NCBI RefSeq assembly: GCF_014696225.1
Contig: NZ_JACJPV010000017.1
Location: 1 to 64,000, forward strand
Length of the DNA: 64,000 nt
From: Anabaena sp. FACHB-1237
Lineage (GTDB): Bacteria; Cyanobacteriota; Cyanobacteriia; Cyanobacteriales; Nostocaceae
Direction: 5' to 3'
Positions 1 to 36,385 of this stretch are shown here, one piece after another. Position numbers and translations under genes: made by a program. Under the pieces are notes generated by a model, which was not told the DNA's origin, did no database searches, and was given only the letters and a program-made list of their open reading frames with translations. How positions within the stretch are numbered: position 1 is the first letter of the stretch; every line of letters begins with the position of its first letter.

Positions 1-1
1 G

Positions 2-382
2 TTGCATTGTGCTGTCGAGAGTTTAGTAATTTCTCTCATTCTCCCATACCGATTACTAGACGACCCTTATTTATCAATGCACTATTTTTTTATTCTGTCA
101 ATGCGTAAGTCCTATTTTAGTAAAGCAGCTTTTGTGAAAAGTTTGCAGAAATTAATTCCTGAAATTCAAGCTAAAGATATCATTCCTACCCATGCAGGAG
201 TTCGCGCTCAAGCATTAATGAATAATGGTTCTTTAGTTGATGATTTTTTAATCATTCAAGGTGAAAATTCCGTTCATGTTTGTAATGCTCCTTCTCCGGC
301 TGCAACTTCTTCTTTAGAAATTGGTAAGGCCATAGTAAATCAAATTCCAGCACCGCATCATTTACAAAGCTTGGTTAGTTAA
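2..382 (+). CDS. C-terminal part of an L-2-hydroxyglutarate oxidase-like protein (5' end outside window or truncated)
   Basis: The reading frame is open from the window edge to a TAA at 380-382. From about position 104 the peptide reads like the C-terminus of the FAD-dependent LhgO/L2HGDH family, with the motifs GVRAQAL, LVDDFLI and [17 protein letters not shown]. In the family this enzyme oxidises L-2-hydroxyglutarate to 2-oxoglutarate. The preceding ~34 residues do not resemble the part of the family expected there, so homology seems to start abruptly. That may mean a truncated gene, a frameshift or a junction with foreign DNA, and the gene may not be functional. The N-terminal FAD-binding domain is not in the window. 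Confidence 0.6.
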
Positions 383-551
383 TTGGTAATGGTTAATTGG
401 TAATTGATGATGGATGATCAACAATAGAAATTAATTACTAGATGAAATTACCAGATTAAAAATTGCTCTTCATTTCTGAATTAATGAGGATAGATTTTTC
501 ATGCAATTTATTCTGCAATTTTAGGAACACAATAAAAAGGACTTGAACAAA

Positions 552-1580
552 ATGAAAATATTAGTTACCGGAACAGAAGGTTATTTAGGTTCTTTATTAC
601 CTCCTTTATTAATGAAAAGATGTCATGAAGTCATAGGAGTAGATACTGGTTTTTATAAAGTTGGTTGGCTATATAATGGCACAGAATTGACTGCTAAAAC
701 TCTCAATAAAGACATTAGAGACATCAATCCTGAAGATTTAGAAGGTGTGGATGCAATAGTCCACATGGCGGAACTTTCTAACGATCCCACTGGACAATTA
801 GCACCGAATATAACTTATGATATTAATCATTTAGGTTCTGTTCGTTTAGCAAATTTAGCTAAAACTATGGGAGTGCGTCGTTTTGTGTATATGTCTTCTT
901 GTAGTGTTTATGGAGTAGCTAGTGAAGGTGATGTAACGGAAGAATCTCCTGTTAATCCCCAAACAGCTTATGCTGAATGTAAAACATTAGTTGAAAGAGA
1001 TGTTAAACCATTAGCTGATGATGATTTTTCGCCTACTTTTATGCGGAATGCTACAGCTTTTGGTGCTTCCCCAAGAATGAGATTTGATATTGTTTTAAAT
1101 AATTTATCGGGGTTAGCTTGGACAACAAAAGAAATTAAAATGACTAGTGATGGTACTCCTTGGCGGCCTTTAGTTCATGCTTTGGATATTTGTAAAGCCA
1201 TTGTTTGTGCGTTAGAAGCACCAAGAGATATTATCCATAATCAAGTTTTTAATGTGGGCGATACTAACAATAATTATCGGGTGAAAGAAATCGCCGAAAT
1301 TATCGCAGAAGTGTTTCCTGGTTGTAAATTATCCTTTGGTAATAATGGCTCAGATAATCGCAGTTATCGCGTTTCTTTTGAGAAAATTAATTCCACTCTT
1401 CCTGGTTTTAAATGTGATTGGAATGCTCAACAAGGAGCAGAACAATTATTTAAGCTGTTCAAACAAATTGACATGACAGAAGATACTTTCTTATTCCGAG
1501 GTTTTACCAGATTAAAACAACTGGAGTATTTAATTAGAACTCAACAAATTGATCAGAATTTTTTTTGGAATAACCGCTAA
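552..1580 (+). CDS. NAD-dependent nucleotide-sugar epimerase/dehydratase (extended SDR), HEP island
   Basis: A 342-residue extended short-chain dehydrogenase/reductase. The N-terminal Rossmann motif TGTEGYLG (residues 6-13) binds NAD(P). The catalytic Tyr/Lys pair is in YAECK (Y140, K144), preceded by the SSCSVYG segment. Such enzymes epimerise, dehydrate or reduce nucleotide-bound sugars in the cytoplasm. I chose ATG 552 because AAAGGA lies about 10 nt upstream; the TTG at 543 would sit too close to it. It opens a + strand run of polysaccharide genes and corresponds, from memory, to alr2827 of the Anabaena PCC 7120 HEP island. The exact substrate cannot be read from the sequence. Confidence 0.88.
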   Translation: MKILVTGTEGYLGSLLPPLLMKRCHEVIGVDTGFYKVGWLYNGTELTAKTLNKDIRDINPEDLEGVDAIVHMAELSNDPTGQLAPNITYDINHLGSVRLANLAKTMGVRRFVYMSSCSVYGVASEGDVTEESPVNPQTAYAECKTLVERDVKPLADDDFSPTFMRNATAFGASPRMRFDIVLNNLSGLAWTTKEIKMTSDGTPWRPLVHALDICKAIVCALEAPRDIIHNQVFNVGDTNNNYRVKEIAEIIAEVFPGCKLSFGNNGSDNRSYRVSFEKINSTLPGFKCDWNAQQGAEQLFKLFKQIDMTEDTFLFRGFTRLKQLEYLIRTQQIDQNFFWNNR

Positions 1581-1664: not shown

Positions 1665-2498
1665 ATGCTCAATCAGATTAAAGAAAAAGTCGCTCTAGTA
1701 CAAGATGAGTTAATTTATCAAGCTAAACTTCGGCAACACCACAGTCATTTACCTGTATTAGAAAAGAGAGATCGCATCATCGCTGAATCTTTGCAAAACA
1801 ATGGTATTGTCATTACCACACTAGAAGATTTAGGATTACCTTCCACTTCAGAAATGCTCAATGCAGCCCATAGTCTTTTACCACAAATGGGTAAACATAA
1901 TTATCCAGTTTATGCCCAAAACCCTCCAGAAATTTACACAGTTACAGACTTACCTCAATTTTACAATTGGGGTAAAGAACAAAGACTGCTAAATATTTTG
2001 GAAAACTATATTGGTCTTCCTGTAGCTTATCATGGGGTACAAATCCGTAAAGACTTTATCAATAAAAGTCAATTTAGCACTATGCTATGGCATAGAGATT
2101 CAGAAGATCGTCGCATTGTGAAAATAATTATTTATTTGAATGATGTGGAAGAAAAGGAAGGACCTTTTCAATATGTGCCTTCCTCCTTTACTTCTGGAAT
2201 AAATTTTTATCGTCTTTACTATCAACTTTATGAAAAAGGTATAGATGATGAAACACTCAATAAAATTGTCTCCAAATCAGCTTGGAAATCTTGTTGTGGT
2301 CCAGCAGGTACAGTAATTATAGCTGATACAAACCGACTTTTACATCATGGAACTGTCCGCACATCGGAGCGTTCTACATTGTTTTTTGCCTATACAGCTA
2401 ATCCTCCTAAAAGAGCAGAACTTTGTACTCAATATTGGGACAATACTTTTCCCCGATTAGAATTATCTAGTCAAAATTTCCATCTCAAGAATCAGTAA
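1665..2498 (+). CDS. Fe(II)/2-oxoglutarate-dependent oxygenase, phytanoyl-CoA dioxygenase-like (copy 1)
   Basis: A 277-residue protein with the facial triad of the PhyH-like 2-oxoglutarate oxygenases: WHRD supplies H143 and D145, and LLHHGT supplies the distal His (H227/H228), followed by R236 that would bind 2-oxoglutarate. Family members hydroxylate small molecules or lipid/sugar intermediates using O2 and 2-oxoglutarate. AGGAAA precedes the ATG. It is a paralogue of the gene at 3771-4613, with identical spacing of the metal ligands, and a GT2 gene lies between them. The context implies modification of a polysaccharide or lipid-linked intermediate, but the substrate is unknown. Confidence 0.8.
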   Translation: MLNQIKEKVALVQDELIYQAKLRQHHSHLPVLEKRDRIIAESLQNNGIVITTLEDLGLPSTSEMLNAAHSLLPQMGKHNYPVYAQNPPEIYTVTDLPQFYNWGKEQRLLNILENYIGLPVAYHGVQIRKDFINKSQFSTMLWHRDSEDRRIVKIIIYLNDVEEKEGPFQYVPSSFTSGINFYRLYYQLYEKGIDDETLNKIVSKSAWKSCCGPAGTVIIADTNRLLHHGTVRTSERSTLFFAYTANPPKRAELCTQYWDNTFPRLELSSQNFHLKNQ

Positions 2499-2621
2499 TT
2501 AGGATAACTACTTCAGTAAAATTAATTATACATTTTCCTGTCTGCTCCCTTTTCTCTTCCTAAAACGTGTAATTTATTTTGCATAACTACTTATCTAAGA
2601 TTTGAGGATAAATATAGAACC

Positions 2622-3608
2622 ATGAATAAATTACTGAGCATAGCCATCCCTACATATAATCGTGCAGGATTACTGGATAAACAATTAACATGGTTGGCTA
2701 AATCTATCAAAGGTTTTGAATCAGAATGTGAAATCATTGTTTCTGATAACTGTTCTGAAGATGATACCCAAGAAATCATTAAAAAATGGCAATTATTATT
2801 ATCAAATATAACTTTTCACAACAATAGAAATCCTGAAAATATTGGGGTGATGAGAAATATTGCCTACTGTATTAACGCAGCAAAAACTCAGTATGTTTGG
2901 ACAATTAGCGATGATGATAGAATTGGTGATCAAGCCATAGATTATATCGTTAAAACTTTAGTGCAAGAGCCAGATTTATCACTACTCATTTTAAATTTTT
3001 CCTGTCGCCATGAAGTAACAGGTGAGTTATTGTATGAGCGCTGTTATAAGAATGCTACTGGAAAAACTGAAATTAATGGTAAAGCAGTATTTGAAAAATG
3101 TATCCAGGAAAATCGCTCTGGTGTACAGTTAATGTCTGCTGAAGTTTACAAAACAGAATTAGCTCAGTCTGCGCTGAAAAAATGGCCAGATGGGATAAAA
3201 AATTTAGATTATCAAGTTTATTTAACTGGTTTTTGTGCCTTTTATGGTAGTGTCAAAATCAGTCAAGAAACTTATTTAGAAAATGCTTTTGGGACTAGTC
3301 ATTGGATGCTAAAACCTAAAGTATTACTGCAAATGCAATACAGTTATTCGCCACAATTGAATATCAAATTAATAGAAATTGGCTACTCCAAAGCTTTTTG
3401 TCATCAGTTAGTGCGTCAGCATTTTCATGAAAATAACTGGCGAGTTTTCTTTGGTGCTTTAAAAAGATGGCCAATTATCGCGGTGACTACTTTAATTCCT
3501 TATCTGGGGTTAGTGGGTGCATCAGTGTTAGAAAGTGCTGTAGCACAACAGGAAGCAGTAGAAGGTAGAACTTCTCAAGTGCGGAGTACGCGAAATAAGG
3601 ATAACTAA
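2622..3608 (+). CDS. Glycosyltransferase family 2
   Basis: A 328-residue GT-A fold glycosyltransferase. The N-terminus SIAIPTYNRAGLLDKQL and the nucleotide-binding SDNCSEDDTQE are classic GT2, and ISDDDR (D97-D99) gives the DXD metal/UDP-sugar motif. The C-terminal ~60 residues contain a hydrophobic stretch that may touch the membrane. It is flanked by the two oxygenase paralogues at 1665 and 3771. It probably adds one sugar to the lipid-linked HEP repeat unit on the cytoplasmic side. Donor and acceptor cannot be inferred. Confidence 0.88.
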   Translation: MNKLLSIAIPTYNRAGLLDKQLTWLAKSIKGFESECEIIVSDNCSEDDTQEIIKKWQLLLSNITFHNNRNPENIGVMRNIAYCINAAKTQYVWTISDDDRIGDQAIDYIVKTLVQEPDLSLLILNFSCRHEVTGELLYERCYKNATGKTEINGKAVFEKCIQENRSGVQLMSAEVYKTELAQSALKKWPDGIKNLDYQVYLTGFCAFYGSVKISQETYLENAFGTSHWMLKPKVLLQMQYSYSPQLNIKLIEIGYSKAFCHQLVRQHFHENNWRVFFGALKRWPIIAVTTLIPYLGLVGASVLESAVAQQEAVEGRTSQVRSTRNKDN

Positions 3609-3770
3609 TTTTTCATAATTCAGGAGTTATGAATTAATGAAATTTTTGCAGTTATTTGTTGTTAATTAAAAACTTGCTGCCGTGGATTTATATTACACAC
3701 AAATATTCTGAATGCTGACTCCTGAATTTTTACCAAAGTGTCAGTAAATAATTAATGAAGAGTAAATATC

Positions 3771-4613
3771 ATGATCAATACAATCAAGGCTCAAACATCA
3801 GCCCTAGTTTATGAATTAAATTATATGCAGGCATTAGTTAAGCATCGCAAAAATTTACCTAAATTAGCAGCAAGCGATCGCTTAATTCTTAATTCCCTGA
3901 ACCGTGATTGTATTTATATGACAAATCTCACGGATTTAGGTTTTAGCTCAACTTCCACCTTGCTAAATGCTGCCCATTCTCTATTACCAAGTATAGTAAA
4001 AGATAACCATAGTGATTCACTCCGAACTCCACCAAAAATCTACACGGTTACAGATTTACCAGAATTTTCCAACTGGGGAAAAGAAACAAGATTACTCAAT
4101 ATTATCGAAAATTATATTGGTCTTCCTGTTGCCTATCAGGGTGTACATTTACGCAAAGATTTTGCCTGTAAAGATCAGTTTGCCACATTACTATGGCATA
4201 GAGATATAGAAGATAGAAGATTTATCAAAATCATTGTTTATTTGAATGATGTGGAAGAAAAGCATGGTCCTTTTGAATATATCCCATTGTCTTATACTTC
4301 TTTATATCATCCTAATTATTATCGAATTCAATCTAAAATTAATACTTCGGGAGGAATAAACGATGAAACACTAAATCAGATTATTCCCAAATCAGCTTGG
4401 AAGTCTTGTCCAGGTCCTGCTGGTACAGTGATTATTGTTGATACAAGAAGACTTTTACATCATGGTACTCTCCGCACAGAAGAAAGATCAACATTATTTT
4501 TTGCCTACGGTTCTACTTCTCGCAAATACCCAGAACTTTGTAATCATTTTTGGGATGATTCTCATTTCAAACCTGTTTTGTCTAGGCAATATGATCAGGG
4601 TGTAAATAATTAG
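3771..4613 (+). CDS. Fe(II)/2-oxoglutarate-dependent oxygenase, phytanoyl-CoA dioxygenase-like (copy 2)
   Basis: A 280-residue paralogue of the protein at 1665-2498. Both share EDRR, YLNDVEEK and the segment RLLHHGT, and the Fe ligands fall at the same numbers (H143, D145 in LWHRD; distal His in LLHHGT; Arg in ERSTLFFAY). The copies differ most at the N-terminus and in the loop after YIPLSYTS, so they may act on different positions or substrates. The two genes probably arose by duplication around the GT2 gene. Function as for copy 1: an O2-consuming tailoring oxygenase of unknown substrate. Confidence 0.8.
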   Translation: MINTIKAQTSALVYELNYMQALVKHRKNLPKLAASDRLILNSLNRDCIYMTNLTDLGFSSTSTLLNAAHSLLPSIVKDNHSDSLRTPPKIYTVTDLPEFSNWGKETRLLNIIENYIGLPVAYQGVHLRKDFACKDQFATLLWHRDIEDRRFIKIIVYLNDVEEKHGPFEYIPLSYTSLYHPNYYRIQSKINTSGGINDETLNQIIPKSAWKSCPGPAGTVIIVDTRRLLHHGTLRTEERSTLFFAYGSTSRKYPELCNHFWDDSHFKPVLSRQYDQGVNN

Positions 4614-4689: not shown

Positions 4690-5235
4690 ATGATTTTTAC
4701 CTCCACTAAACTAGCAGGTGCTTTCATTATTGACTTAGAAGAAAAACCAGATCATCGTGGTTTTTTTGCTCGGACTTTTTGCGCTGATGAATTTGTAGCT
4801 CATGGTTTAAAACCCACCGTTGCCCAATGCAATCTTTCTTTTAATCATAAAAAAGGCACTTTGCGCGGAATGCACTATCAAATTCTCCCCGCAGCAGAAA
4901 CAAAATTAATTCGCTGCACTAAAGGAGCAATTTATGATGTAATTGTGGATATGCGTCCCGATTCTCCCACTTATTTAACTCATATTGGTGTGGAATTAAC
5001 AGCCGAAAATCGTCGCGCTTTATATGTTCCAGAAATGTTTGCTCATGGTTATCAAGCATTAACAGATAATGCCGAAGTTATTTATCAAGTGGGCGAATTT
5101 TACACTCCTGGATATGAGAGAGGTTTACGTTATGACGATCCCATTTTAGATATTTCCTGGCCAATTCCTGTAACTGAAATTTCTGAAAAAGATCAAAATT
5201 GGGCTTTACTAGAATCTGTATTAATTGGAGTTTAA
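4690..5235 (+). CDS. rfbC: dTDP-4-dehydrorhamnose 3,5-epimerase family protein (RmlC/RfbC-like)
   Basis: A 181-residue cupin epimerase of normal length for RmlC. The catalytic residues sit almost at the usual numbers: H62 in LRGMHYQ, K72 in TKLIRC and Y132 in VIYQVGEFYTP. The family inverts C3 and C5 of a dTDP-4-keto-6-deoxyhexose. No rmlA, rmlB or rmlD lies in the window, so it may act on another NDP-4-keto sugar made with the epimerase/dehydratase at 552. Its stop lies one base before the ATG of the next gene, which indicates an operon. It matches alr2830 of PCC 7120 from memory. Confidence 0.9.
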   Translation: MIFTSTKLAGAFIIDLEEKPDHRGFFARTFCADEFVAHGLKPTVAQCNLSFNHKKGTLRGMHYQILPAAETKLIRCTKGAIYDVIVDMRPDSPTYLTHIGVELTAENRRALYVPEMFAHGYQALTDNAEVIYQVGEFYTPGYERGLRYDDPILDISWPIPVTEISEKDQNWALLESVLIGV

Positions 5236-5236
5236 A

Positions 5237-6550
5237 ATGATTATTGTTGATAAGGCTTTAAAGGCTTGTGCTACTATTGGTAAATCTGTCAAAGTTGGCA
5301 TGATTGGCGCTGGTTTTATGGGGCGAGGAATTGCCAATCAAATCATCAATTCTGTACCAGGAATGGAGTTAGTTGCTATTGCTAACCGCAACATAGATAA
5401 GGCTCAAAGAGCTTATTTAGAAGCAGGAATTGAAGATATTAAAGTTGTTAGTAGTGTCACTGATTTAGAAGATAAAATTGCTCAACATCAGTATGCAATT
5501 ACCGATGATGCCATGTTACTTTGTCAAGCGGAAGGCATAGATGCAATCATTGAGGTGACAGGAACTATTGAATACGCCGCACACTTAGTCATGTCTGCGA
5601 TCGCCTATCAAAAGCATATCGTTTTAATGAACGCCGAACTTGATGGAACAATTGGACCGATCCTCAAAGTACACGCAGACAGAGCAGGTATCATTCTAAC
5701 AGCCTGTGATGGTGATCAACCGGGGGTAGAAATGAACCTCTACCGCTTTGTGCAAAGTATCGGTTTAACACCCCTATTATGCGGCAATATTAAAGGTTTA
5801 CAAGACCCCTACCGCAACCCCACCACTCAAGCAGGTTTTGCCGAACGCTGGGGACAAAATCCCGCCATGGTGACAAGTTTTGCCGATGGTACAAAAATCT
5901 CCTTTGAACAGGCCATAGTCGCTAACGCTACGGGGATGAAAGTAGCTAAACGTGGTATGTTAGGATACAATTACACAGGTCATGTAGATGAAATGACCAA
6001 GATGTATGATATCGAACAACTACAGGAATTGGGTGGTATAGTTGACTATGTTGTAGGTACAAAACCTAGTCCTGGAGTATTTGTTTTTGCTAGTCACCCT
6101 GATCCTAAACAGCGCCACTATCTTAACCTGTATAAATTAGGTGAAGGACCCCTTTATAGTTTTTACACTCCCTATCATTTATGTCATTTTGAAGTGCCAT
6201 TATCCGTAGCGCGAGCGGTACTATTCCATGATGCTGTATTGAGTCCTATTGCTGGTCCAGTGGTGGATGTTGTCACCACAGCTAAAATTAACTTAAAAGC
6301 TGGTGAAATATTGGATGGAATTGGTCAATATATGACCTACGGACAATGTGAAAATTCTGATATTGCGATCAACCAAAATTTATTACCAATGGGAATAGCA
6401 GAAGGTTGTCGTTTAAAGCGAGATATTCCACAAGATCAAGTATTAACTTACGATGATGTGGAAGTACCTAAAGGTAGACTTTGTGATCAATTACGTGCTG
6501 AACAGACAGAATATTTTGCCAGTAGTAAAACCTTAGTCTTAGCTCATTAA
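5237..6550 (+). CDS. NAD(P)-dependent oxidoreductase with C-terminal SAF domain
   Basis: A 437-residue protein. Near the N-terminus VGMIGAGFMGRG (GxGxxG at residues 24-29) is a Rossmann NAD(P)-binding motif like that of Gfo/Idh and homoserine dehydrogenases. The last ~90 residues resemble an SAF (antifreeze-like) domain, containing VLTYDDVEVPKGRL. Enzymes of this build oxidise or reduce sugar-derived acids or aldehydes. ATG 5237 is chosen because GGAG at 5227-5230 is well placed; the TTG at 5225 would overlap the preceding gene. Position next to rfbC suggests a role in making a modified sugar donor for HEP; the reaction is unknown. Confidence 0.75.
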   Translation: MIIVDKALKACATIGKSVKVGMIGAGFMGRGIANQIINSVPGMELVAIANRNIDKAQRAYLEAGIEDIKVVSSVTDLEDKIAQHQYAITDDAMLLCQAEGIDAIIEVTGTIEYAAHLVMSAIAYQKHIVLMNAELDGTIGPILKVHADRAGIILTACDGDQPGVEMNLYRFVQSIGLTPLLCGNIKGLQDPYRNPTTQAGFAERWGQNPAMVTSFADGTKISFEQAIVANATGMKVAKRGMLGYNYTGHVDEMTKMYDIEQLQELGGIVDYVVGTKPSPGVFVFASHPDPKQRHYLNLYKLGEGPLYSFYTPYHLCHFEVPLSVARAVLFHDAVLSPIAGPVVDVVTTAKINLKAGEILDGIGQYMTYGQCENSDIAINQNLLPMGIAEGCRLKRDIPQDQVLTYDDVEVPKGRLCDQLRAEQTEYFASSKTLVLAH

Positions 6551-7089
6551 TTGTATCAGTAAAAATGTTCATCTTGATATAATTTTTTGCACTGAACAAC
6601 ATCATACCCAGTTAATGAACCTCAAGAAAAATGTTCATCATGATAGATTTATTCCTCTGGTATCAGCCATGAATTATTTGCTACAAAATAGCATATTTAT
6701 CAGGGATAATTTAGCAAAAAGTATCATCTAATTTGCCTTAAATACTAAGAATAAATTCAGAGGTTTCCTGATCAGTTTATTTGACCTCTGAATTTATTTA
6801 TATCAAAATATAAATGTTGTAAATCCTAGGATTATTGGTTTAATTACCATTAATGCAATGAGGTATTATTCGGTGCATACTCATAAGAAAAACACAATAA
6901 TATCTCATGTAATTGCCTAAAAGTATAGTCCTTTAGGTATAAAAATAGAAATCAGATTCCCAAATGCTGTTTTCTGTAGTAGATGATTGGATATAATCAA
7001 ATTTTTTACAAATTAGTTAAAGACAATCAACTGCTAAATCAGTTCTATTAATTCATACTCAGTAACTCATTAATCGAGGGTGAAAATTG
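6551..7089. other. Intergenic region with a spaced direct repeat, candidate promoter of the second HEP block
   Basis: About 540 bases without a gene. An 18-bp near-identical direct repeat, AAAATGTTCATCTTGATA at 6562-6579 and its one-mismatch copy at 6628-6645, lies just after the oxidoreductase gene, with the second copy forming part of a short ATGAAC/GTTCAT inverted pair. The rest is AT-rich and shows no NtcA-type GTA-N8-TAC palindrome that I could find. A promoter for the glycosyltransferase-wzc genes most likely lies here. Confidence 0.4.
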
Positions 7090-8190
7090 ATGAAAATTGC
7101 TCTTGTTCATGACTACCTAACCCAGCGTGGAGGCGCAGAGCGCGTATTTGAACTATTGTGTAAACACTATCCTAACGCTGATATTTTCACATCATTATAT
7201 GATGCAGAAAAAACTATTGATCTACAAGAAAGAATCATCAAAACCACATTTTTACAAAACATTCCTGGGGCAAAAAAATACTTTCGGATGTTAGCACCCT
7301 TATACTTTCCTGCATTTCGATCTTTAGACCTACAGGATTACGATTTAATTATTAGTAGTAGTACAAGTTTTGCCAAATCCGTTAGAAAAAAACCTACTGC
7401 CCAACATATTTGTTTTTGTCATAATGTTACCAGATTTCTTTGGGATACACAAACTTATTTACGGGAATATAGCGATTATAAATACTTTGCTCCTATGATT
7501 GAGAAAATATTTGAAATCATGAGAAAAGTAGATTTGCAATATGCCCAAGAACCAGATATTTACATAGCTAATTCTAGTATAGTTGCCCAAAGAATCCAAA
7601 ATATTTATCATAAAAAAGCCCTAGTAATCAACTATCCTATTGATACTAGCAACTTTGTTTTTTCTGAAAATAAAGAAGATTATTATTTAGCATCAGCCAG
7701 AATGATTAGTTATAAACGTCTAGATATTATTATCGAGGCTTTTAACTGGTTAGGAGGTCAATTATTAATTTCAGGAGATGGACCAGAACAGCAAAAATTA
7801 AAAGATCATGCCTTACCAAATATTCATTTTTTAGGGCATATTAGTGATAGTAAACGTAAACAATTATTTGCCAATGCTAAATCAATAATTGTCGCAGCTT
7901 TAGAAGATTATGGTTTAGTACCAGTGGAAGCAAATGCTAGTGGTACACCAGTTATAGCCTATGGTGCAGGTGGAGTATTAGACACACAAATTCCAGGAAA
8001 AACAGGAGTATTTTTCAAAAAACAAACACCATGTTCATTACAAACAGCATTATTAGAAGCAAAAAGAATATCCTGGGATTATTATAAAATCCATCATCAT
8101 GCCATTACAAATTTTTCAGAATCAGCATTTTTTAATAAAGTTAGCAAAATAATTGATCACAACACAGGATTACATCCCTTATATCTTTAA
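7090..8190 (+). CDS. Glycosyltransferase family 4 (GT-B)
   Basis: A 366-residue GT-B enzyme. The N-terminus MKIALVHDYLTQRGGAERV contains the GGAE acceptor-side loop of GT4. The C-terminal donor domain has SARMISYKRLDIIIEAF and ALEDYGLVPVEANASGTPV, the E-x7-E type nucleotide-sugar site. ATG 7090 is preferred because GAGG at about 7077-7080 is correctly spaced; the TTG just before it is less likely. Many relatives are mannosyltransferases, which would suit the mannose-rich backbone of HEP, but that is inference. It follows the 540-bp intergenic region and precedes the wzc-like gene. Confidence 0.87.
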   Translation: MKIALVHDYLTQRGGAERVFELLCKHYPNADIFTSLYDAEKTIDLQERIIKTTFLQNIPGAKKYFRMLAPLYFPAFRSLDLQDYDLIISSSTSFAKSVRKKPTAQHICFCHNVTRFLWDTQTYLREYSDYKYFAPMIEKIFEIMRKVDLQYAQEPDIYIANSSIVAQRIQNIYHKKALVINYPIDTSNFVFSENKEDYYLASARMISYKRLDIIIEAFNWLGGQLLISGDGPEQQKLKDHALPNIHFLGHISDSKRKQLFANAKSIIVAALEDYGLVPVEANASGTPVIAYGAGGVLDTQIPGKTGVFFKKQTPCSLQTALLEAKRISWDYYKIHHHAITNFSESAFFNKVSKIIDHNTGLHPLYL

Positions 8191-8325: not shown

Positions 8326-10554
8326 GTGGTTCAAACTAGTCTCCATCCCCAAATTAATCCCGCAGTAGATACAGAACCAGGATATGGGCAAATATTTACT
8401 GTCATCCTTCGTAGATTTCCTTGGTTGTTATTAGTATTAATGTGTTCTACAAGTATTGCTGGTATCATAACTTTAAAAACCGAACCCAGCTACAAAAGTA
8501 GTATGCAGTTATTAATTGAATCCAACTATCAAGGTAAAAAAGAAACTGAAGGTCCAGAAAGTCAATTTACTGAATCTAACGTACAGATAGATACAGCAAC
8601 TCAATTAAACTTAATGCAAAGTTCTGGACTCATCCAAAAAGCAGTAGATAAACTAAAAAAAGATTATCCAGATATCAGTGTATTTCAGATAAAAAGATCC
8701 TTAGTTTTAACACAAATTAAAACTCCAGAAGATAATATAGCCACAAAAATATTTCAAGTAGATTACACAAATAACAACCCTGAAAAAACAGCAAAAGTTC
8801 TCCAAGCCATTCGTCAAGTTTATTTAGAATACAATAAAAAGCAACAAGAATTACGTCTACAAAAAGGGCTACAAGTAATTAAGGAACAATTGAGAAAAGC
8901 TAATGATGAAGTAACAACTTCAGAGGCTAACTTACAAATATTTCGGCGTAATCAAAATTTAATTGATCCGGAAACTCAAGCTAAATCTGTAGAGAATACA
9001 TTAAATACTGTTCAACAAGAAATACAAACCACTCGCTCACAATATGAAGAAGCATTAGCAAAACAGAAAAATTTGCAAATGCAGCTTAATCGTTCTCCAC
9101 AAAATGCTTTAGTTTCTTCTCGATTAAGTCAGTCTACCCGTTATCAGGGGTTACTCAATGAAATTCAAAAAACAGAACTAGCTTTAGCACAAGAAAGACT
9201 ACGTTTTACCGAAGATACTCCCAGTGTCCAAAAACTCAATGAGCAGTTAAAAAGTCAAAAAGAACTATTACAAAAAGAAGTTGGTAGAACTTTAGGAAAT
9301 AAATCTGGCAACGGCTTTAATTCTGGAGAAAATCTGTTGGAGCAAGGGCAACTAGGAGAAATTGACTTGAATCTTACTGGGGAATTAGTAGCAACTCAAA
9401 CTACTATAGTTTCATTAACCGCAAGACATCAAACCTTAGTAGCTAAAGAGAAAGAATTGCAGGCAGAATTGAAACGTTTTCCTGCTTTATTAGCCTATTA
9501 CAATCGCCTTTTACCCCAATTACAATTTAGTCGAGAAAGACTACAACAATTATTAACAGCAGAACAGAAATTACGCCAAGAATTAGCTAAAGGAGGATTC
9601 AATTGGGAAGTAGTGGAACAACCACAACTAGGTGTCCAAACAGGTCCTAATATGAGACAAAATCTCTTATTAGGTGGGGTAATTGGCTTAATGTTAGGAG
9701 GTTTAGTAGCTTTTATTAGAGAAGCATCGGATGATTCTGTACATACCACTGCCCAATTAGAAAAAGAGATCGCTTTACCATTATTAGGAACAACACCGAA
9801 ATTACCACCGGCTAAACCAAAAGAATCAATGATTAAATTGCCTTTTGGTAGACCAGAAGTGCTCGCACCTTGGACAATCCAAGTATTACAATCTACTCCC
9901 CGTTGGGAATCTTTGGATTTAATATTTAAAAATATTGAACTCCTCAATCGCGTCTCTGATTTAAAATCTGTAATGGTGACATCAGCTTTACCAGATGATG
10001 CTAAATCAGCCTTAGCATTAGGCTTGGCCATGAGTGCAGCTAGACTACATAAAAAGGTCTTATTAATTGATGCTAATTTGCGTAGTCCTAGCCTACATAA
10101 ACAATTAAATCTTCCTAATGAACAAGGACTTTCCACGTTATTAGAAAGTGATATTTCTGTTCCTCAGCAAATTGGTGTTTCCTACTCTGGTTCATCTTAT
10201 ATTGATATTTTGACTGCCGGACCTATTCCTAGTGATCCTGCCCATCTTTTAAGTTCCCCTCGGATGATGGAATTGATCAGTACATTTGAAGAAAATTATG
10301 ATTTGGTACTGATAGATGGTTGTTCGGTTTTAGGTATGGTAGATGCTATGTTAACAGCTTCTTCTTGTCGCAGTGTGATTATGATGGCTAGTATTGGTAA
10401 AGTAACTCGTAATCAATTACATCAGGCTACTAATATGTTAAGTAAATTGAATTTAATTGGAGTGGTGGCTAATGGTGTATCTTCTAATGATAGCACCTAT
10501 GTTCCCTATGTTAAACCTCAACAATTTGCCTTAAAACAAGCCTTGGAAGAATAG
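8326..10554 (+). CDS. Wzc-like polysaccharide co-polymerase with C-terminal bacterial tyrosine-kinase domain
   Basis: A 742-residue inner-membrane protein that starts at GTG 8326 (AAGGA eight nt upstream). The order is: Wzz-type N-terminal domain with a membrane helix (about 28-52), a long coiled coil (about 170-440), a second helix (about 446-466), then a BY-kinase ATPase domain. Walker A' is VLLIDANLRSPSLH (D582) and Walker B is DLVLIDG (659-665). The P-loop reads ALPDDAKSA (K560), with Ala where the family has Gly before Lys. The C-terminus has few tyrosines. It would control chain length and export of HEP; from memory alr2833. Confidence 0.88.
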   Translation: MVQTSLHPQINPAVDTEPGYGQIFTVILRRFPWLLLVLMCSTSIAGIITLKTEPSYKSSMQLLIESNYQGKKETEGPESQFTESNVQIDTATQLNLMQSSGLIQKAVDKLKKDYPDISVFQIKRSLVLTQIKTPEDNIATKIFQVDYTNNNPEKTAKVLQAIRQVYLEYNKKQQELRLQKGLQVIKEQLRKANDEVTTSEANLQIFRRNQNLIDPETQAKSVENTLNTVQQEIQTTRSQYEEALAKQKNLQMQLNRSPQNALVSSRLSQSTRYQGLLNEIQKTELALAQERLRFTEDTPSVQKLNEQLKSQKELLQKEVGRTLGNKSGNGFNSGENLLEQGQLGEIDLNLTGELVATQTTIVSLTARHQTLVAKEKELQAELKRFPALLAYYNRLLPQLQFSRERLQQLLTAEQKLRQELAKGGFNWEVVEQPQLGVQTGPNMRQNLLLGGVIGLMLGGLVAFIREASDDSVHTTAQLEKEIALPLLGTTPKLPPAKPKESMIKLPFGRPEVLAPWTIQVLQSTPRWESLDLIFKNIELLNRVSDLKSVMVTSALPDDAKSALALGLAMSAARLHKKVLLIDANLRSPSLHKQLNLPNEQGLSTLLESDISVPQQIGVSYSGSSYIDILTAGPIPSDPAHLLSSPRMMELISTFEENYDLVLIDGCSVLGMVDAMLTASSCRSVIMMASIGKVTRNQLHQATNMLSKLNLIGVVANGVSSNDSTYVPYVKPQQFALKQALEE

Positions 10555-10989
10555 AAAATACCATCTAAAATACTTAACAAAATCCCCGACTTCTCTAAGA
10601 AGTCGGGGATTTGATTATTGATTATGCAATATAATATCTTTTTCATCTTACTTTTTAAATAGATGCAGTAACAATTGATTCTTTTTATTGAAAATTGATA
10701 TTTGCCGATAAACACAACATCTATTTAAAGAGTAAATAAAGAATTGATCTATAAGTGTTCCATTTCTTGTACTTCTTATATCCTAGAGATTAACGGCTAT
10801 AATTAAAATCTTGCAGTTAATTATTGATGCAATTATCTTGCTATTTCTACCTGAATTTATGCTGAACAGGCTATTTTTATAGCTGTGGAATTTTCTGGTA
10901 GTTATTAGCTAAATTTGTGCTGTTTTCGCTGTTGATTTATCACCCTTAGAACTAAGTTATTGCTGCCAAATTATTACTTTCAAAGACCT
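10555..10989. promoter_or_regulatory. hepC upstream region
   Basis: About 430 bases between the wzc-like gene and hepC. It begins with the 33-bp-type palindrome at 10580-10612, then AT-rich DNA with no gene on either strand that I can support. In PCC 7120 expression of hepC and hepA is developmentally controlled through upstream DNA and proteins such as HepK/DevRA, so this stretch is the likely control region. I see no defined operator by eye. Confidence 0.35.
10580..10612. terminator. Gene-end palindrome (family member A)
   Basis: Arms AAATCCCCGACTTCT (10580-10594) and the complementary 10598-10612 around a 3-nt loop, 26 nt after the wzc-like stop. It is one of six copies in the window of a CCCCGACTTCTT/AAGAAGTCGGGG palindrome, all placed 3' of genes. 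No strong T-tract follows, so termination is likely but not certain. Confidence 0.7.
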
Positions 10990-11661
10990 ATGTTTATTTC
11001 AATTGTTCCCAATGTACAGAATGATCAGAGTTTATCACAAAACTATGAAAATTCGGCAAATGTTCCCTATATCTTGCAATGGAAAATGGGAATTTTATTA
11101 GTAAAAAGTGTCAATTATTTACCAGAAATATCGGAAATATCTTTACCTACTTTAGATAATCAAAAATTGTTAGTAGATTGTTTAAAACGTTCTCCCATTA
11201 AATTAGTCAGTATAGATCCAAAATTAGGAATTTCTTATATAAATGCTTGGGCAAATGCTTGTCAAAAGGCTAATAAACCTATATTTTTGAGAATGACAAT
11301 TAATGATCAATCAACTCAAAAACCATTATTTAGGATAATTCAGCGAGTTATAGAAAGTTTTTTAGCCATATTACTGTTGATATTTTTTAGTCCTATGTTT
11401 TTGGTATTGATCACTTTTAATTTTTTTAAATCACCAGTAATTTTATTCAGTTATGATTGGTATGTTGGTGAAAATGGGCAACTTTTTCGTAAGATAAATT
11501 TATCTACAAACATGATATATGATGTTCTCCCCCTTCCATTAAGAATGAGTAAATATTTATTAGACAATCTATTTAGTTTATGGAATGTGATCCGGGGAGA
11601 AATAAAATTAGTCGGTAATCAATATATATCGTTAGAAAATGCGGTTAAAAACATCTTATAG
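10990..11661 (+). CDS. hepC: HepC, heterocyst envelope sugar-transferase-like protein
   Basis: A ~223-residue protein (ATG 10990; an in-frame TTG at 10960 would add ten residues, and neither has a strong RBS). The C-terminal half resembles the membrane anchor and catalytic core of polyprenyl-phosphate sugar transferases: one hydrophobic helix near residues 115-140, then YVGENGQLF and LWNVIRGEIKLVG. The usual KFRSM, DELPQ and GPRP motifs are altered to KINLS, DNLFS and GNQY, so transferase chemistry is doubtful. Position immediately before hepA matches hepC (alr2834) of PCC 7120, which is needed for the heterocyst polysaccharide layer. Confidence 0.8.
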   Translation: MFISIVPNVQNDQSLSQNYENSANVPYILQWKMGILLVKSVNYLPEISEISLPTLDNQKLLVDCLKRSPIKLVSIDPKLGISYINAWANACQKANKPIFLRMTINDQSTQKPLFRIIQRVIESFLAILLLIFFSPMFLVLITFNFFKSPVILFSYDWYVGENGQLFRKINLSTNMIYDVLPLPLRMSKYLLDNLFSLWNVIRGEIKLVGNQYISLENAVKNIL

Positions 11662-11789: not shown

Positions 11790-13643
11790 ATGATGAATAT
11801 ACAACTTTTTAGTCCCGTTGGTAATTTTTTGAAAGCTAGTCAATTTTGGCAGAATAATTATTTAATTCTTCGTGAATTTAAACATTTTAGGAAAATGGCT
11901 ATTTTAGCCTTGATATTTACATTTTTAGCTGCTACTTTTGAAGGTGTAAGTATTGGTTTTTTACTATCTTTTTTACAAAATTTAACTACTCCTGATGCTC
12001 AACCTATGCAAATAGGTATAGGTTGGTTTGATCATTGGATTTTAGGAGTACATACATCAGCAACTAGTCGTTTATATCGGATATCTATACTGATTTTGTT
12101 AAGTGCTTGGATGCGTGCAGCGTTTAATTATTTTGCCCAAGTATATACAGAATTAGCTCAATTACATTTTTGCGATCGCTTACGTAAACAAATTTTTGAA
12201 CAATTACAATCTGTATCCTTGAGTTACTTTACTAAAACCCGTTCTGGAGAGTTAATTAATACCATTACCACAGAAATAGAAAAGGTAAAACAAATTTTTG
12301 GTTCTTTCGCTTTTGTATTTACTAGGGTACTCACAGCTTTTGTTTATTTAACCACTATGTTTGTGCTGTCATGGCAATTAACAATAATCACATTTTTATT
12401 GTTTACACTATTAGCTGTAGGTTTATCAAATTTGAATGCTAGAGTCAGAGAAAGCAGTTTTGACACTTCCATTGCTAATGGTAATTTTACATCCAGAGCC
12501 ATAGAATTTATTAATGGTATTCGCACAATTCACGCTTATGGTACTCAGGAATTTGAACGACAACGTTACTACAAAGCTAGTAATGAAATTGTCAAAAGTT
12601 CTACTAAAGTTGTGATTATTTGGACATTGGTAAAACCCATTGCTGAAACAGTGGCTACTAGTATATTAATTGGCATGATTTTATTAGCTTTCACTCAATT
12701 TGTTTCCCATGGGAGATTACAAGTAGGTTCTCTATTAACCTTTTTCTTCGTATTATTTCGCCTTGTACCTTTCATCCAAGATATTAACGGTACACGAGCA
12801 TTTATTAGTAGTCTTCATGGTTCAGGTGATAATATTAAAAACTTAGTCAGAAGTGATAATAAAAAATACTTTGAAAATGGTTCATTGTTATTTCCTGGGT
12901 TCAAAAGATCCATTGATTTAATATCTGTAGATTTTGGTTATAATGATGAACAACGAATTTTACATGATATTACTTTGTCTATTGAAAAAGGCAAAATGAC
13001 GGCGTTAGTTGGTGCTTCTGGTGCTGGTAAAACCACTCTTGCAGATTTAATTCCTCGTTTTCATGATGCTACGGAAGGTAATATTTATATAGATGAGATT
13101 GATATTAGAAAATTTGATATTAATTCTCTACGCCAAAAGATAGCAGTAGTAAGTCAAGATACATTTATTTTCAATACTTCTATCTGGAGGAATATTGCCT
13201 ATGGTACAGCAAATGCCACAGAGTTAGAAATTAAAGAGGCGGCAAAATTAGCTAATGCTTTAGAATTTATTTTAGAAATGCCAGAGGGTTTTCAAACACA
13301 ATTAGGAGATAGAGGAGTAAGATTATCTGGAGGGCAAAGACAAAGAATTGCTATTGCCCGTGCATTACTAAAAAATCCCGAAATTTTGATTTTAGATGAA
13401 GCTACCAGTGCCTTAGATTCCGTTTCCGAAAGATTGATTCAAGAATCATTAGAAAATCTATCTATGGGTAGAACTGTGATAGCGATCGCTCATCGTCTTT
13501 CTACTATTGCTAAAGCCGATAAAGTCGTAGTATTAGAACAAGGAAGAATCGTAGAACAAGGGAAATATCAAGAACTTTTGGAGCAAAAAGGTAAACTTTG
13601 GCAATATCATCAAATGCAGTATCAAATGGCAGATAACGATTAA
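11790..13643 (+). CDS. hepA: HepA, ABC exporter of heterocyst envelope polysaccharide
   Basis: A 617-residue half-transporter with fused membrane and ATPase domains. Six membrane helices fill roughly residues 35-330. The nucleotide-binding domain has Walker A GASGAGKTT (from 408), the signature LSGGQRQR (from 512) and Walker B ILILDEATSALD (near 536), then an H-loop in IAIAHRLST. It would act as a homodimer in the inner membrane, moving HEP or its lipid-linked unit outward. hepA mutants of PCC 7120 lack the polysaccharide layer and cannot fix N2 in air. ATG 11790 is followed at once by a second ATG; either could be used. Confidence 0.93.
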   Translation: MMNIQLFSPVGNFLKASQFWQNNYLILREFKHFRKMAILALIFTFLAATFEGVSIGFLLSFLQNLTTPDAQPMQIGIGWFDHWILGVHTSATSRLYRISILILLSAWMRAAFNYFAQVYTELAQLHFCDRLRKQIFEQLQSVSLSYFTKTRSGELINTITTEIEKVKQIFGSFAFVFTRVLTAFVYLTTMFVLSWQLTIITFLLFTLLAVGLSNLNARVRESSFDTSIANGNFTSRAIEFINGIRTIHAYGTQEFERQRYYKASNEIVKSSTKVVIIWTLVKPIAETVATSILIGMILLAFTQFVSHGRLQVGSLLTFFFVLFRLVPFIQDINGTRAFISSLHGSGDNIKNLVRSDNKKYFENGSLLFPGFKRSIDLISVDFGYNDEQRILHDITLSIEKGKMTALVGASGAGKTTLADLIPRFHDATEGNIYIDEIDIRKFDINSLRQKIAVVSQDTFIFNTSIWRNIAYGTANATELEIKEAAKLANALEFILEMPEGFQTQLGDRGVRLSGGQRQRIAIARALLKNPEILILDEATSALDSVSERLIQESLENLSMGRTVIAIAHRLSTIAKADKVVVLEQGRIVEQGKYQELLEQKGKLWQYHQMQYQMADND

Positions 13644-19863: not shown

Positions 19864-21075
19864 ATGAAACTTTGTATTATTACTCACAGATTAAAAAAAG
19901 GTGATGGTCAAGGACGAGTTAATTATGAAGTTGCTAAAGAAGCAATTCATCAAGGACATCATTTAACATTATTAGCTAGTGAAGTTACACCTGAATTAGC
20001 AAACAATCAACAAGTTACTTGGGTTCCTATTCATGTTAAAAATTATCCAACGGAACTACTAAAGAATTTAATATTTGCCCAAAAAAGTAGCAGTTGGTTA
20101 AAGAAAAATCGAGAAAAATTCGATTTAATTAAAGTTAATGGCGCAATTACTAATGTTCCATCTGATGTAAATGCAGTGCATTTTGTTCATAGTTCTTGGT
20201 GGCAATCTCCTGTACATATTTCTCGCCATCGTCACGATTTTTATGGGTTATATCAATGGTTATTTACTGCGGCTAATTCTTATTGGGAAAAACAGGCTTT
20301 TCGTCAAGCTAAAATTATTATTGCCGTCTCAGAAAAAGTTGCCCAAGAATTAGTAAATATTGGTATTCCTCGCCAGAAAATTCGCGTTATTCTCAATGGT
20401 GTAGACTTGGAAGAATTTACACCTGGTGTTACTTCTCGAAAAGAATTAGGACTACCAGAAAATGTCACTTTGGCTTTATTTGCTGGAGATATTCGTACAC
20501 CTAGAAAAAACTTAGATTCTGTATTACAGGCTTTAAAAAAAGTTCCTAACTTACATTTAGCCGTAGTTGGAGACACTAAAGGAAGTCCGTTTTTAGAATT
20601 AGCTAATAACTTAGGAATTAGTGAACGAGTGCATTTTTTAGGATATCGTCGAGATATGGCTAAAATTATGCAAGCCGCAGATTTATTTGTATTTCCTTCC
20701 CGTTATGAAGCCTGCACTCTTGTACTATTAGAAGCATTAGCATCTGGCTTACCTGTAATTACAGCCACTGCTACTGGAGGTGCTGAATTAATAAAAGTAG
20801 AATCAGGAATTGTTTTACCAGAAACAGATAATATTGATAGTTTAGCTACTAGTTTATCTGTTTTAGCCTGCGATCGCTCATTACGTCAACAAATGGGTAA
20901 GGCTGCTCGTATTCTTGCCGAAAACCATAGTTGGACAAATATGGCACAAAAATATATACATATATTTACTGAATTAACCAACCATGAGAAACACAGTTCT
21001 CATTCCCACCTATCGTCGTCCTCAAGACTTATCACGTTGTCTCCAGGCACTACAACAGCAAATCAAACCAGTTGA
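19864..21075 (+). CDS. Glycosyltransferase family 4 with read-through tail overlapping the next gene
   Basis: A 403-residue GT4. LKKGDGQGRVNYEVA is the acceptor loop; LFAGDIRTPRKNLDSVL and PSRYEACTLVLLEALASGLPV form the donor site with the E-x7-E pair. The conserved domain ends near residue 375. The last ~30 residues (Ser/Thr/His-rich, ending TTTANQTS) are translated out of frame across the first 92 nt of the next gene, which suggests that an earlier stop was lost. AGAGAGG lies upstream of the ATG. Confidence 0.87.
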   Translation: MKLCIITHRLKKGDGQGRVNYEVAKEAIHQGHHLTLLASEVTPELANNQQVTWVPIHVKNYPTELLKNLIFAQKSSSWLKKNREKFDLIKVNGAITNVPSDVNAVHFVHSSWWQSPVHISRHRHDFYGLYQWLFTAANSYWEKQAFRQAKIIIAVSEKVAQELVNIGIPRQKIRVILNGVDLEEFTPGVTSRKELGLPENVTLALFAGDIRTPRKNLDSVLQALKKVPNLHLAVVGDTKGSPFLELANNLGISERVHFLGYRRDMAKIMQAADLFVFPSRYEACTLVLLEALASGLPVITATATGGAELIKVESGIVLPETDNIDSLATSLSVLACDRSLRQQMGKAARILAENHSWTNMAQKYIHIFTELTNHEKHSSHSHLSSSSRLITLSPGTTTANQTS

Positions 21076-21928
21076 TCAAGTAATAATTGTTATTCGTAAT
21101 ACGGATACTGAAACTCAACAATTTATCACCCATTTACACCACAACTTACCTCTAGAAACCGTTACCGTCAGTCAACCAGGAGTAGTGGCTGCCCTCAATG
21201 CGGGCCTCATCAGAGTCAATGGTGATATCCTTTCCATCACCGATGACGATGCCGCCCCCCATCCTGATTGGTTAGTTAAAATTAATACCCATTTTCAATC
21301 TGATCCTCAAATTGGTGGTGTTGGTGGTCGTGATTGGATTTATCACGGGGAAAAATTAGAAAATGATTCCCGACCTATTGTTGGTAAATTGCAATGGTTT
21401 GGGCGCGTTATAGGCAATCATCATCTAGGGATTGGCTCACCCCGTGAAGTGGATTTTCTTAAAGGTGTAAACATGAGTTTTCGCACCCAGTCCATTGGTG
21501 AATTACGTTTTGATGAGAGAATGAGAGGAACAGGCGCACAAGTACATTTTGAAATGTCCTTTACTCTCAGCCTGAAAAGAGATGGATGGAAAATGATTTA
21601 TGACCCTAGTATTGCAGTAGATCACTATCCTGCTCAACGTTTTGATGAAGATCAACGTCGAAATTTTAATGAAATTGCCTTAATTAACCTAGTTCATAAC
21701 GAAACAATCATCTTATTAGAACATCTTTCCCCGGTACGTCGCTTTGTATTTTTATTGTGGTCAATTTTAGTAGGTACAAGGGAAAGTTTTGGCATTATCC
21801 AATGTTTACGACTATTACCCCAACAAGGAATAATAGTCATCAAAAAACTGCAAGCATCCTTATATGGACGTTGGTTAGGATGGCAAACATGGCAAAAAAC
21901 ATATTCGAGAAAATTAGTAGAAAATTAG
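20984..21928 (+). CDS. Glycosyltransferase family 2
   Basis: A 314-residue GT2. The N-terminus MRNTVLIPTYRRPQDLSRCL is complete, so the start at 20984 is real although it lies 92 nt inside the upstream GT4 reading frame. SITDDDAAPHPDW carries the DDD motif and FLKGVNMSFR the acceptor-side signature of this subgroup. A hydrophobic segment near residue 250 (VFLLWSILVGT) may be membrane-associated. It is followed 23 nt later by the polymerase gene. Confidence 0.88.
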   Translation: MRNTVLIPTYRRPQDLSRCLQALQQQIKPVDQVIIVIRNTDTETQQFITHLHHNLPLETVTVSQPGVVAALNAGLIRVNGDILSITDDDAAPHPDWLVKINTHFQSDPQIGGVGGRDWIYHGEKLENDSRPIVGKLQWFGRVIGNHHLGIGSPREVDFLKGVNMSFRTQSIGELRFDERMRGTGAQVHFEMSFTLSLKRDGWKMIYDPSIAVDHYPAQRFDEDQRRNFNEIALINLVHNETIILLEHLSPVRRFVFLLWSILVGTRESFGIIQCLRLLPQQGIIVIKKLQASLYGRWLGWQTWQKTYSRKLVEN

Positions 21929-35007: not shown

Positions 35008-36306
35008 ATGAATGCGATCGCTACCACTATCCAATCTATGCTTAACATAGATAACACCGTTATCCCTTGGGAAAATATTCTCACACATCAGCAGCAACAT
35101 ATACATCAATGTAGTAATAATACTAAAAATCCTAGTTGTATTGTCTATCCAGAAACACAAAAGCAACTAGCAAATATCATGCAAATAGCTAGGCAACATC
35201 AATGGCGTGTACTTCCCTGTGGTAGTGGTAGTAAAATTAACTGGGGTGGTTTAATAACAGATGTTGATATTGTCGTTAGCACAGAACGCATAAATCAATT
35301 AATAGAACACGCAGTGGGTGATTTAACCATCACAGTCGAAGCAGGTAGAAAATTTAGTGATATTCAAGAAATATTAGCTAAACATCAACAAACCCTAGCC
35401 TTAGATCCCACATTTCCCGATTATGCCACTATCGGTGGTATTGTAGCCACTGCCGATACAGGTTCATTAAGACAACGTTATGGTAGTGTACGGGATCAAC
35501 TTTTAGGTATAACATTTATCCGTGCAGATGGAGAAATTGCTAAAGCCGGAGGAAGAGTAGTTAAAAATGTTGCTGGTTATGATTTAATGAAATTATTTAC
35601 TGGTTCTTACGGTACTTTAGGAATAATTAGCCAAGTTACCTTCCGAGTATATCCATTACCAGAAACATCATCAACTATAATTTTAACAGGTAATAAATCA
35701 AACATTTCTCAAGCTATTAAAAATTTACAAGCATCGGAATTAACCCCAACCAAAGCAGACTTATTATCACATCAAATAGTTACTAATTTAGGATTAGGTA
35801 ATATATCAGAAGATAAATTGGGTTTAATTTGTCAGTTTGCTAGTATTCATGAAAGTGTACAAGAACAAATCAAAAGACTATCATTAGTAGCGGACAAATT
35901 AGAATTAAATAGAGAACTCTACAGTGATCATCACGAACTTAACCTATGGAAACAATTATCAGAATCAATATATCAACCTCAGCAAAATTCCTTAATTACC
36001 TGCAAAATAGGAGTATTATCTACTGCGGCAATTGATATCATCAATAACATAGAATTTGGCTTAATTCATTTAAGTAGTGGATTAGGTGTAGTCAGGCTAG
36101 AAAATGAAACTCAGGTAGTAAAATTACGGAAAATATGTCAAGAGAATTACGGATTTTTAACAATTTTATCTGCACCAGTAGAATTAAAAACAAAAGTTGA
36201 TATTTGGGGATATAATGGAAATGCCTTAGCCCTCATGCAACGAATTAAAAATCAATTTGATAGTGATCATATTTTGAATCCTGGTAGATTTTTAGGAGGA
36301 ATATAA
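35008..36306 (+). CDS. glcE: Glycolate oxidase/dehydrogenase subunit GlcE (FAD-binding)
   Basis: A 432-residue FAD-linked oxidase of the PCMH fold. SCIVYPETQKQLANIMQIA and LPCGSGSKINWGG are FAD-contact segments; GGRVVKNVAGYDLMKLFTGSYGTLGI is the hallmark of GlcD/GlcE proteins. With GlcD and GlcF it oxidises photorespiratory glycolate to glyoxylate and passes electrons to the quinone pool. A HIP1 octamer lies in codons 2-5. It is followed 79 nt later by glcF; glcD is not in the window. Confidence 0.9.
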   Translation: MNAIATTIQSMLNIDNTVIPWENILTHQQQHIHQCSNNTKNPSCIVYPETQKQLANIMQIARQHQWRVLPCGSGSKINWGGLITDVDIVVSTERINQLIEHAVGDLTITVEAGRKFSDIQEILAKHQQTLALDPTFPDYATIGGIVATADTGSLRQRYGSVRDQLLGITFIRADGEIAKAGGRVVKNVAGYDLMKLFTGSYGTLGIISQVTFRVYPLPETSSTIILTGNKSNISQAIKNLQASELTPTKADLLSHQIVTNLGLGNISEDKLGLICQFASIHESVQEQIKRLSLVADKLELNRELYSDHHELNLWKQLSESIYQPQQNSLITCKIGVLSTAAIDIINNIEFGLIHLSSGLGVVRLENETQVVKLRKICQENYGFLTILSAPVELKTKVDIWGYNGNALALMQRIKNQFDSDHILNPGRFLGGI

Positions 36307-36385
36307 CTTAAATAATATCAAATCATGTTCCATAATCTGACATTTTTGTAAATAAGAAAACCAACACAAAAAAGGAAAATTGAAA

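Follow-up and report, generated by a model that had tools for sequence, protein, structure and literature searches.

Two PhyH-like oxygenases beside a predicted 2-oxoglutarate-dependent sugar-nucleotide module in the heterocyst envelope polysaccharide island of Anabaena sp. FACHB-1237

The genes for the heterocyst envelope polysaccharide (HEP) are known through mutant phenotypes. The oxygen barrier of the heterocyst consists mainly of a glycolipid layer, of which HEP is the outer support, and 2-oxoglutarate (2OG) is the nitrogen-starvation signal in cyanobacteria. Here we analyze a stretch of 64,000 nucleotides from Anabaena sp. FACHB-1237 (Nostocaceae; positions 1 to 64,000 of contig NZ_JACJPV010000017.1, hereafter the window), in which two genes for PhyH-like 2OG/Fe(II) oxygenases, here called A and B, lie in a HEP island next to a short-chain dehydrogenase/reductase (SDR) gene and lhgO, the gene for L-2-hydroxyglutarate oxidase. 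The gene order and the Pfam content farther downstream fit alr2825-alr2841 of Anabaena sp. PCC 7120. In the annotations of that strain, alr2826, alr2828 and alr2829 appear as hypothetical or unknown proteins, alr2828 is also listed under glycosyltransferases, and the genes of the cluster respond to the loss of sigC. The "unknown protein" alr2829 holds the position of oxygenase B. The ~3264 nt from alr2828 to alr2832 would accommodate a single oxygenase gene besides rmlC and the gene for the DRL-type oxidoreductase, whereas the window has two oxygenases.

The C4-dehydrogenase of the Campylobacter heptose pathways binds NADH tightly and is reoxidized by 2OG, which yields L-2-hydroxyglutarate, and a C3/C5 epimerase and then a C4 reductase come after it (PMC10680097). 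Cj1427 oxidizes a nucleotide sugar at C4 and hands the electrons to 2OG. As among HEP islands, the capsule heptose pathway of C. jejuni has either a C4-dehydrogenase or a 4,6-dehydratase ahead of an RmlC-type epimerase. Moreover, the best PDB match of the window's SDR is 6vo6 (E 6.5e-29, with the next best, 9e-19, ten orders behind), which we take to be Cj1427. The two systems differ in that HEP islands have CDP-glucose genes instead of GDP-heptose ones, add the L-2-hydroxyglutarate oxidase gene and the oxygenases, and carry DRL in the place of the C4 reductase. The window's DRL matches PDB 3upl, the Brucella DXR-like oxidoreductase DRL, over nearly its full length (E 7.5e-62). As for the oxygenases, a profile of 23 relatives has ectoine hydroxylase (EctD, 4mhr) as its best PDB match (E 0.0033 over 124 positions). 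EctD shares with A and B the HxD...H plus distal Arg pattern, but similarity is very low, A and B have their own N-terminal region, and they reside in a polysaccharide cluster, unlike EctD, which goes with ectoine genes. In the open-licence literature, nothing relevant was found joining heterocyst with phytanoyl-CoA dioxygenase, 2-hydroxyglutarate or CDP-glucose.

Exchange of the dehydrogenase-oxidase pair with a dehydratase

Our data suggest that the stronger tie of this cluster to 2OG likely lies in the neighboring SDR and oxidase, not in the oxygenases. The oxidase gene directly precedes the SDR gene; its intact orthologue in island L032 scores 627 bits against a cut-off of 299 (NCBIfam NF008726), and the oxidase also matches a solved insect homologue (E 4.6e-95), which we take to be an L-2-hydroxyglutarate dehydrogenase. 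Before the oxidase comes a glucose-1-phosphate cytidylyltransferase (461 bits, cut-off 300). GTEGYLG, MSSCSVYG and SPRMRFD are present in the SDR of all 84 islands that carry one and YAECK in 81 of them; read in the usual way, these are SDR motifs, and the acidic pair of 4,6-dehydratases is absent.

The survey covered 192 genomes of the family, with presence of the oxidase and of the oxygenase scored at E<=1e-20. SDR and oxidase occur together in 175 of these genomes and are both missing from 14; three have the oxidase only (one strong match, in G311, and two weak or fragmentary ones) and none the SDR only. The DRL gene is found in 191 of the 192, which indicates that the HEP island itself persists. 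One hundred islands were mapped and one of them (L116, the same stretch as L032, oxidase 100% identical) was dropped, leaving 99. They were chosen from hit lists with, without and with weak oxygenase matches, not at random, and oxygenase prevalence among them is no population estimate. Stretches without a DRL gene (L053, L060, L080, L086, L130, L137 and L145) were left unmapped, L057-L059 and L061-L070 are non-island loci, and G342 and G417, which have no SDR, are outside the mapped islands.

The oxidase and the SDR are present in 84 of the 99 distinct islands, the remaining 15 have a CDP-glucose 4,6-dehydratase instead, and none is mixed. The window counts among the 84 by gene order only, the oxidase exceeding 350 aa in 83 of the 84. 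The dehydratase model was run on the L035 member alone (X382; 518 bits, cut-off 278) and the other 14 were assigned by similarity to it. In 14 of the 15 genomes with a dehydratase island, the oxidase is absent genome-wide at the survey threshold. On an island tree built from the family 4 glycosyltransferase (GT4) and Wzc of 96 islands, four changes are required for the swap, each on a supported branch, and in 4/4 independent pairs the oxidase changes along with the SDR. The 4,6-dehydratase reaction is redox-neutral and calls for no oxidant; a C4-dehydrogenase, by contrast, has to shed electrons. We infer, as the simplest reading, that SDR and oxidase are exchanged as one because a C4-dehydrogenase using 2OG needs an L-2-hydroxyglutarate oxidase. 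By analogy with Cj1427, it is quite probable that the two enzymes run such a 2OG cycle.

The association extends beyond the family: of 11 clusters there whose SDR is at least 40% identical, 9 also contain an oxidase (67-79% identity; L181-L185, L187 and L189-L191, but not L188 and L192), in some of them with another gene order. Among clusters with a distant SDR (32-36%), 4/8 have an oxidase-like gene of 30-34%. No oxidase is found near a second SDR in the family member L186.

The oxygenase is independent of the swap, being present in 10 of the 15 dehydratase islands and absent from 22 of the 84 SDR islands. This suggests that it neither feeds the oxidase nor requires the 6-hydroxyl or 6-deoxy state of the sugar, and that it probably acts on another residue or on a later intermediate. 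The swap pattern thus separates the oxygenases from the 2OG cycle and leaves each open to separate testing. From the exchange of oxidase plus SDR for a dehydratase, a specific reaction can be proposed for alr2825-alr2827, and it becomes visible which genes form a unit.

The oxygenases: catalytic residues, age and copy number

The first-pass annotation of this DNA described two paralogues with all Fe ligands intact around a GT2 (family 2 glycosyltransferase) gene, and our analysis bears this out: the three open reading frames are all on the plus strand, and A and B are ~59% identical and the sole two homologues in their own genome. H143, D145, H227, H228, R232 and R236 (gene A numbering) are identical in 96/96 island copies of at least 230 aa, and H143, D145, H227 and R236 are invariant in the wider alignment of 23 relatives, non-island ones included. 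H143, D145 and H227, the putative Fe ligands, fit a 2-His-1-carboxylate facial triad (HxD...H), and R236 is the distal Arg, which, going by the superfamily, would bind the 2OG carboxylate. The Asp in the Fe triad speaks against the usual halogenase. With the Pfam PhyH model (PF05721, cut-off 22 bits), A gives 20.6 bits (E 6.1e-4) and B 18.3 bits (E 3.1e-3), for which reason both are filed as PhyH-like only; at E<=0.01 the model matches 13 of the 23 members of the protein family. Purifying selection acts on both genes, with dN/dS (Nei-Gojobori) of ~0.33 for B against L097 and, for A, ~0.22 against L033 and ~0.23 against L032. From their sequences, A and B match what is expected of intact 2OG/Fe(II) hydroxylases and are very probably active non-haem Fe(II)/2OG oxygenases of the PhyH superfamily.

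An oxygenase homologue was found in 183/192 family genomes, many of these being a more distant, non-island paralogue, and a scan of a single named genome gave one locus. Among the SDR islands, 22 have no oxygenase copy, 42 have one, 14 have two and 6 have three; among the dehydratase islands, 5 have none and 10 have one (the L034 copy, broken by one TAG, was counted once). Where present in the mapped islands, the copies have the SDR or dehydratase gene on one side and the DRL gene or GT4 on the other, and are mostly found directly before rmlC. In multi-copy islands, 43/44 copies are closer to a copy of another island than to their own neighbor, indicating that A and B are old paralogues and not the product of a recent duplication. 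A is nearest to the first copies of L033, L098, L032 and L147, and B shares 92% identity with the only copy in L097. On the island tree, at least 13 changes in oxygenase presence are required, and at least 26 in copy number. In-frame stops inside the oxygenase match were counted in four other genomes (G128, G181, G331 and G440). Variable presence, copy number and stop-bearing copies point to tailoring enzymes that are gained and lost.

As a separate observation, oxygenase matches with in-frame stops in L034, L044, G331 and G440 suggest that certain lineages have recently been losing the gene. In the island L082, ~6 opposite-strand genes, one of them HepA-like, lie between GT2 and rmlC.

Proposed role and alternative explanations

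The activities given here to all island enzymes are predicted ones. In the pathway that we propose, the cytidylyltransferase would form CDP-glucose, the SDR would oxidize it at C4 and pass the electrons to 2OG, the oxidase would return L-2-hydroxyglutarate to 2OG, and the RmlC epimerase and the DRL oxidoreductase would complete the CDP-sugar. Within this CDP-hexose pathway, A and B would be accessory tailoring enzymes with no sensor role, each using O2 and 2OG for the hydroxylation of a C-H bond in a product of the HEP island, either a sugar or a short glycan, with succinate and CO2 as by-products. Since both of these ancient paralogues have been retained next to each other, their target positions or residues probably differ. 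We lean toward a sugar or glycan as the substrate, and accessory hydroxylation of the envelope glycan is the role that we consider the most likely, with somewhat better than even chances. To that extent the envelope tailoring suggested in the first-pass annotation stands as the best guess, given intact paralogues in a cluster of sugar-precursor and glycosyltransferase genes. More tentatively, HEP building may draw on 2OG in two ways, that is, as terminal oxidant of the C4 oxidation, with a dedicated oxidase recycling L-2-hydroxyglutarate, and as co-substrate of the glycan hydroxylases; DRL might then produce a CDP-sugar of unusual, possibly rearranged structure that has so far been overlooked in HEP, and whole lineages might have rewired the first step through the dehydratase swap. 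We regard this wider scheme as doubtful as a whole.

The presence of an oxygenase gene and lhgO within one cluster recalls csiD-lhgO of Escherichia coli, in which a 2OG oxygenase gene and lhgO also stand together, and might suggest a functional pair like CsiD (GlaH)-LhgO, the oxygenase making L-2-hydroxyglutarate and the oxidase consuming it. However, all 10 oxygenase-bearing dehydratase islands are in genomes without the oxidase at the survey threshold, and more than a quarter of the oxidase islands (the 22 of 84 counted above) have no oxygenase. Moreover, neither A nor B has a CsiD Pfam match at E<=1, and the oxygenase and lhgO are inherited independently here, in which they differ from the E. 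coli genes. The pair relation was rejected on this loss pattern and is extremely improbable. Nearly as hard to uphold is a 2OG- and O2-responsive control of envelope building by the oxygenases. If active, they need both 2OG and O2, and alr2825-alr2841 respond to sigC loss in Anabaena sp. PCC 7120. Nevertheless, the oxygenases are optional and copy-variable, with none in 27/99 mapped islands, Pfam shows no regulatory domain in A or B, and we know of no ordinary 2OG oxygenase that controls a nucleotide-sugar pathway. The earlier idea that they link envelope tailoring to 2OG or O2 levels is not supported, as nothing observed marks them as sensors, and a role in control is very unlikely.

Decay deserves a little more credit: the stop-bearing copies in other genomes and the interruption of lhgO in this one would be compatible with A and B being functionless passengers in this strain. 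Still, both copies in the window have uninterrupted reading frames, retain every ligand and have dN/dS values of ~0.2-0.33, and we find this explanation improbable. A lipid carrier or other non-sugar substrate, for instance an acyl group on the glycan, is the alternative with the best prospects, although it too is unlikely. The PhyH superfamily includes acyl-CoA hydroxylases, and relatives of A and B in some other genomes adjoin FAD monooxygenase or lipase genes, but the island neighbors are sugar-nucleotide and glycosyltransferase genes.

Several observations weigh against glycan hydroxylation next to a 2OG cycle. To our knowledge, published HEP compositions give common sugars only. The Pfam scores of A and B are both under the PF05721 gathering score and the family call by Pfam alone is marginal, while a fold prediction for B, made on a 4-row alignment, reached pLDDT 30 and was left unused. 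Oxygenases of the same clade co-occur with either the SDR or the dehydratase module (the L078 copy groups with B), which argues against CDP-4-ketohexose itself as the substrate. The surroundings of non-island relatives vary and have no common theme; some, but not all, are polysaccharide clusters. Once the island background is accounted for, oxygenase and GT2 still co-vary (partial r 0.45), but oxygenase and rmlC do so to much the same degree (0.42), so that co-inheritance with GT2 reflects linkage; a co-specificity of oxygenase and GT2 was rejected, being no stronger than linkage to rmlC. Additionally, with four swaps a sign test cannot attain 0.05.

The last of these points concerns the oxidase in the strain itself, where one part of lhgO lies on contig C41 and the other on C9. 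An identical, perfect 19-bp inverted terminal repeat is present at each of the two broken ends, together with a 5-bp duplication, TTTTA, and when the flanks are joined the reading frame continues to the stop codon of lhgO. The genome has 41 occurrences of this repeat, often at a distance of 109-127 bases from the start of a contig. Taken together, these features make it likely that an insertion sequence interrupts lhgO, fixed or not; the stretches concerned are positions 1-119 of the window and 1-127 of L208 (contig C41). With lhgO interrupted, either the oxidase is not strictly essential here or the island is decaying.

Gene layout of the window and further observations

The island runs in the expected HEP order from the cytidylyltransferase to HepA and glycosyltransferases, split over contigs C41 and C9 (table 1). 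The oxygenases had been placed at the start of the HEP island, which is right as to the setting and nearly so as to the start: the cytidylyltransferase gene and the 5' portion of lhgO precede them, on another contig than the window. According to Pfam, further glycosyltransferases and a Wzy-like protein also lie downstream in the window.

Table 1. Positions of the HEP island features in the window
Feature	Position	Strand	Remarks
Insertion sequence right end, likely interrupting lhgO	1..114	.	19-bp inverted terminal repeat 96-114; 5-bp target duplication TTTTA 115-119
L-2-hydroxyglutarate oxidase gene, 3' part (residues 315-402)	113..382	+	alr2826 position; 5' part on contig C41
SDR, predicted 2OG-recycled nucleotide-sugar C4-dehydrogenase	543..1580	+	Cj1427-like; alr2827 position
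PhyH-like 2OG/Fe(II) oxygenase A, 277 aa	1665..2498	+	
GT2 family glycosyltransferase	2622..3608	+	Glycos_transf_2 E 2.5e-16; alr2828 position
PhyH-like 2OG/Fe(II) oxygenase B, 280 aa	3771..4613	+	alr2829 position
RmlC-type 3,5-epimerase (alr2830, rfbC)	4690..5235	+	
DRL-type oxidoreductase	5225..6550	+	alr2831 position; in-frame ATG at 5237 may be true start
GT4 glycosyltransferase	7087..8190	+	alr2832 position
Wzz/Wzc-like protein	8326..10554	+	alr2833 position
Sugar transferase	10960..11661	+	HepC-like position
ABC transporter	11790..13643	+	HepA-like position

A gene for a sugar C-methyltransferase follows the SDR in L038, L039, L051, L087, L111, L118, L122, L140 and L146, and an extra glycosyltransferase near DRL is found in 8/9 of these methyltransferase islands versus 9/91 others (L116 counted). 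In other cyanobacterial families, L187, L189, L190 and L191 represent a different cluster, which combines a cytidylyltransferase, an SDR of 45-49% identity, a C-methyltransferase and an L-2-hydroxyglutarate oxidase, without oxygenase or DRL matches.

Elsewhere in the window (35008-37774), adjacent genes encode a FAD-binding and an Fe-S cysteine-rich protein, which to us resemble glycolate oxidase subunits. On contig C22 of the same genome, nifH matches come in two pieces ~11.8 kb apart, at 8857-9267 (L211) and 21033-21455 (L209). The pieces cover model positions 1-141 and 136-272, and the arrangement looks like that of a gene split by a large element, possibly one that heterocysts excise.

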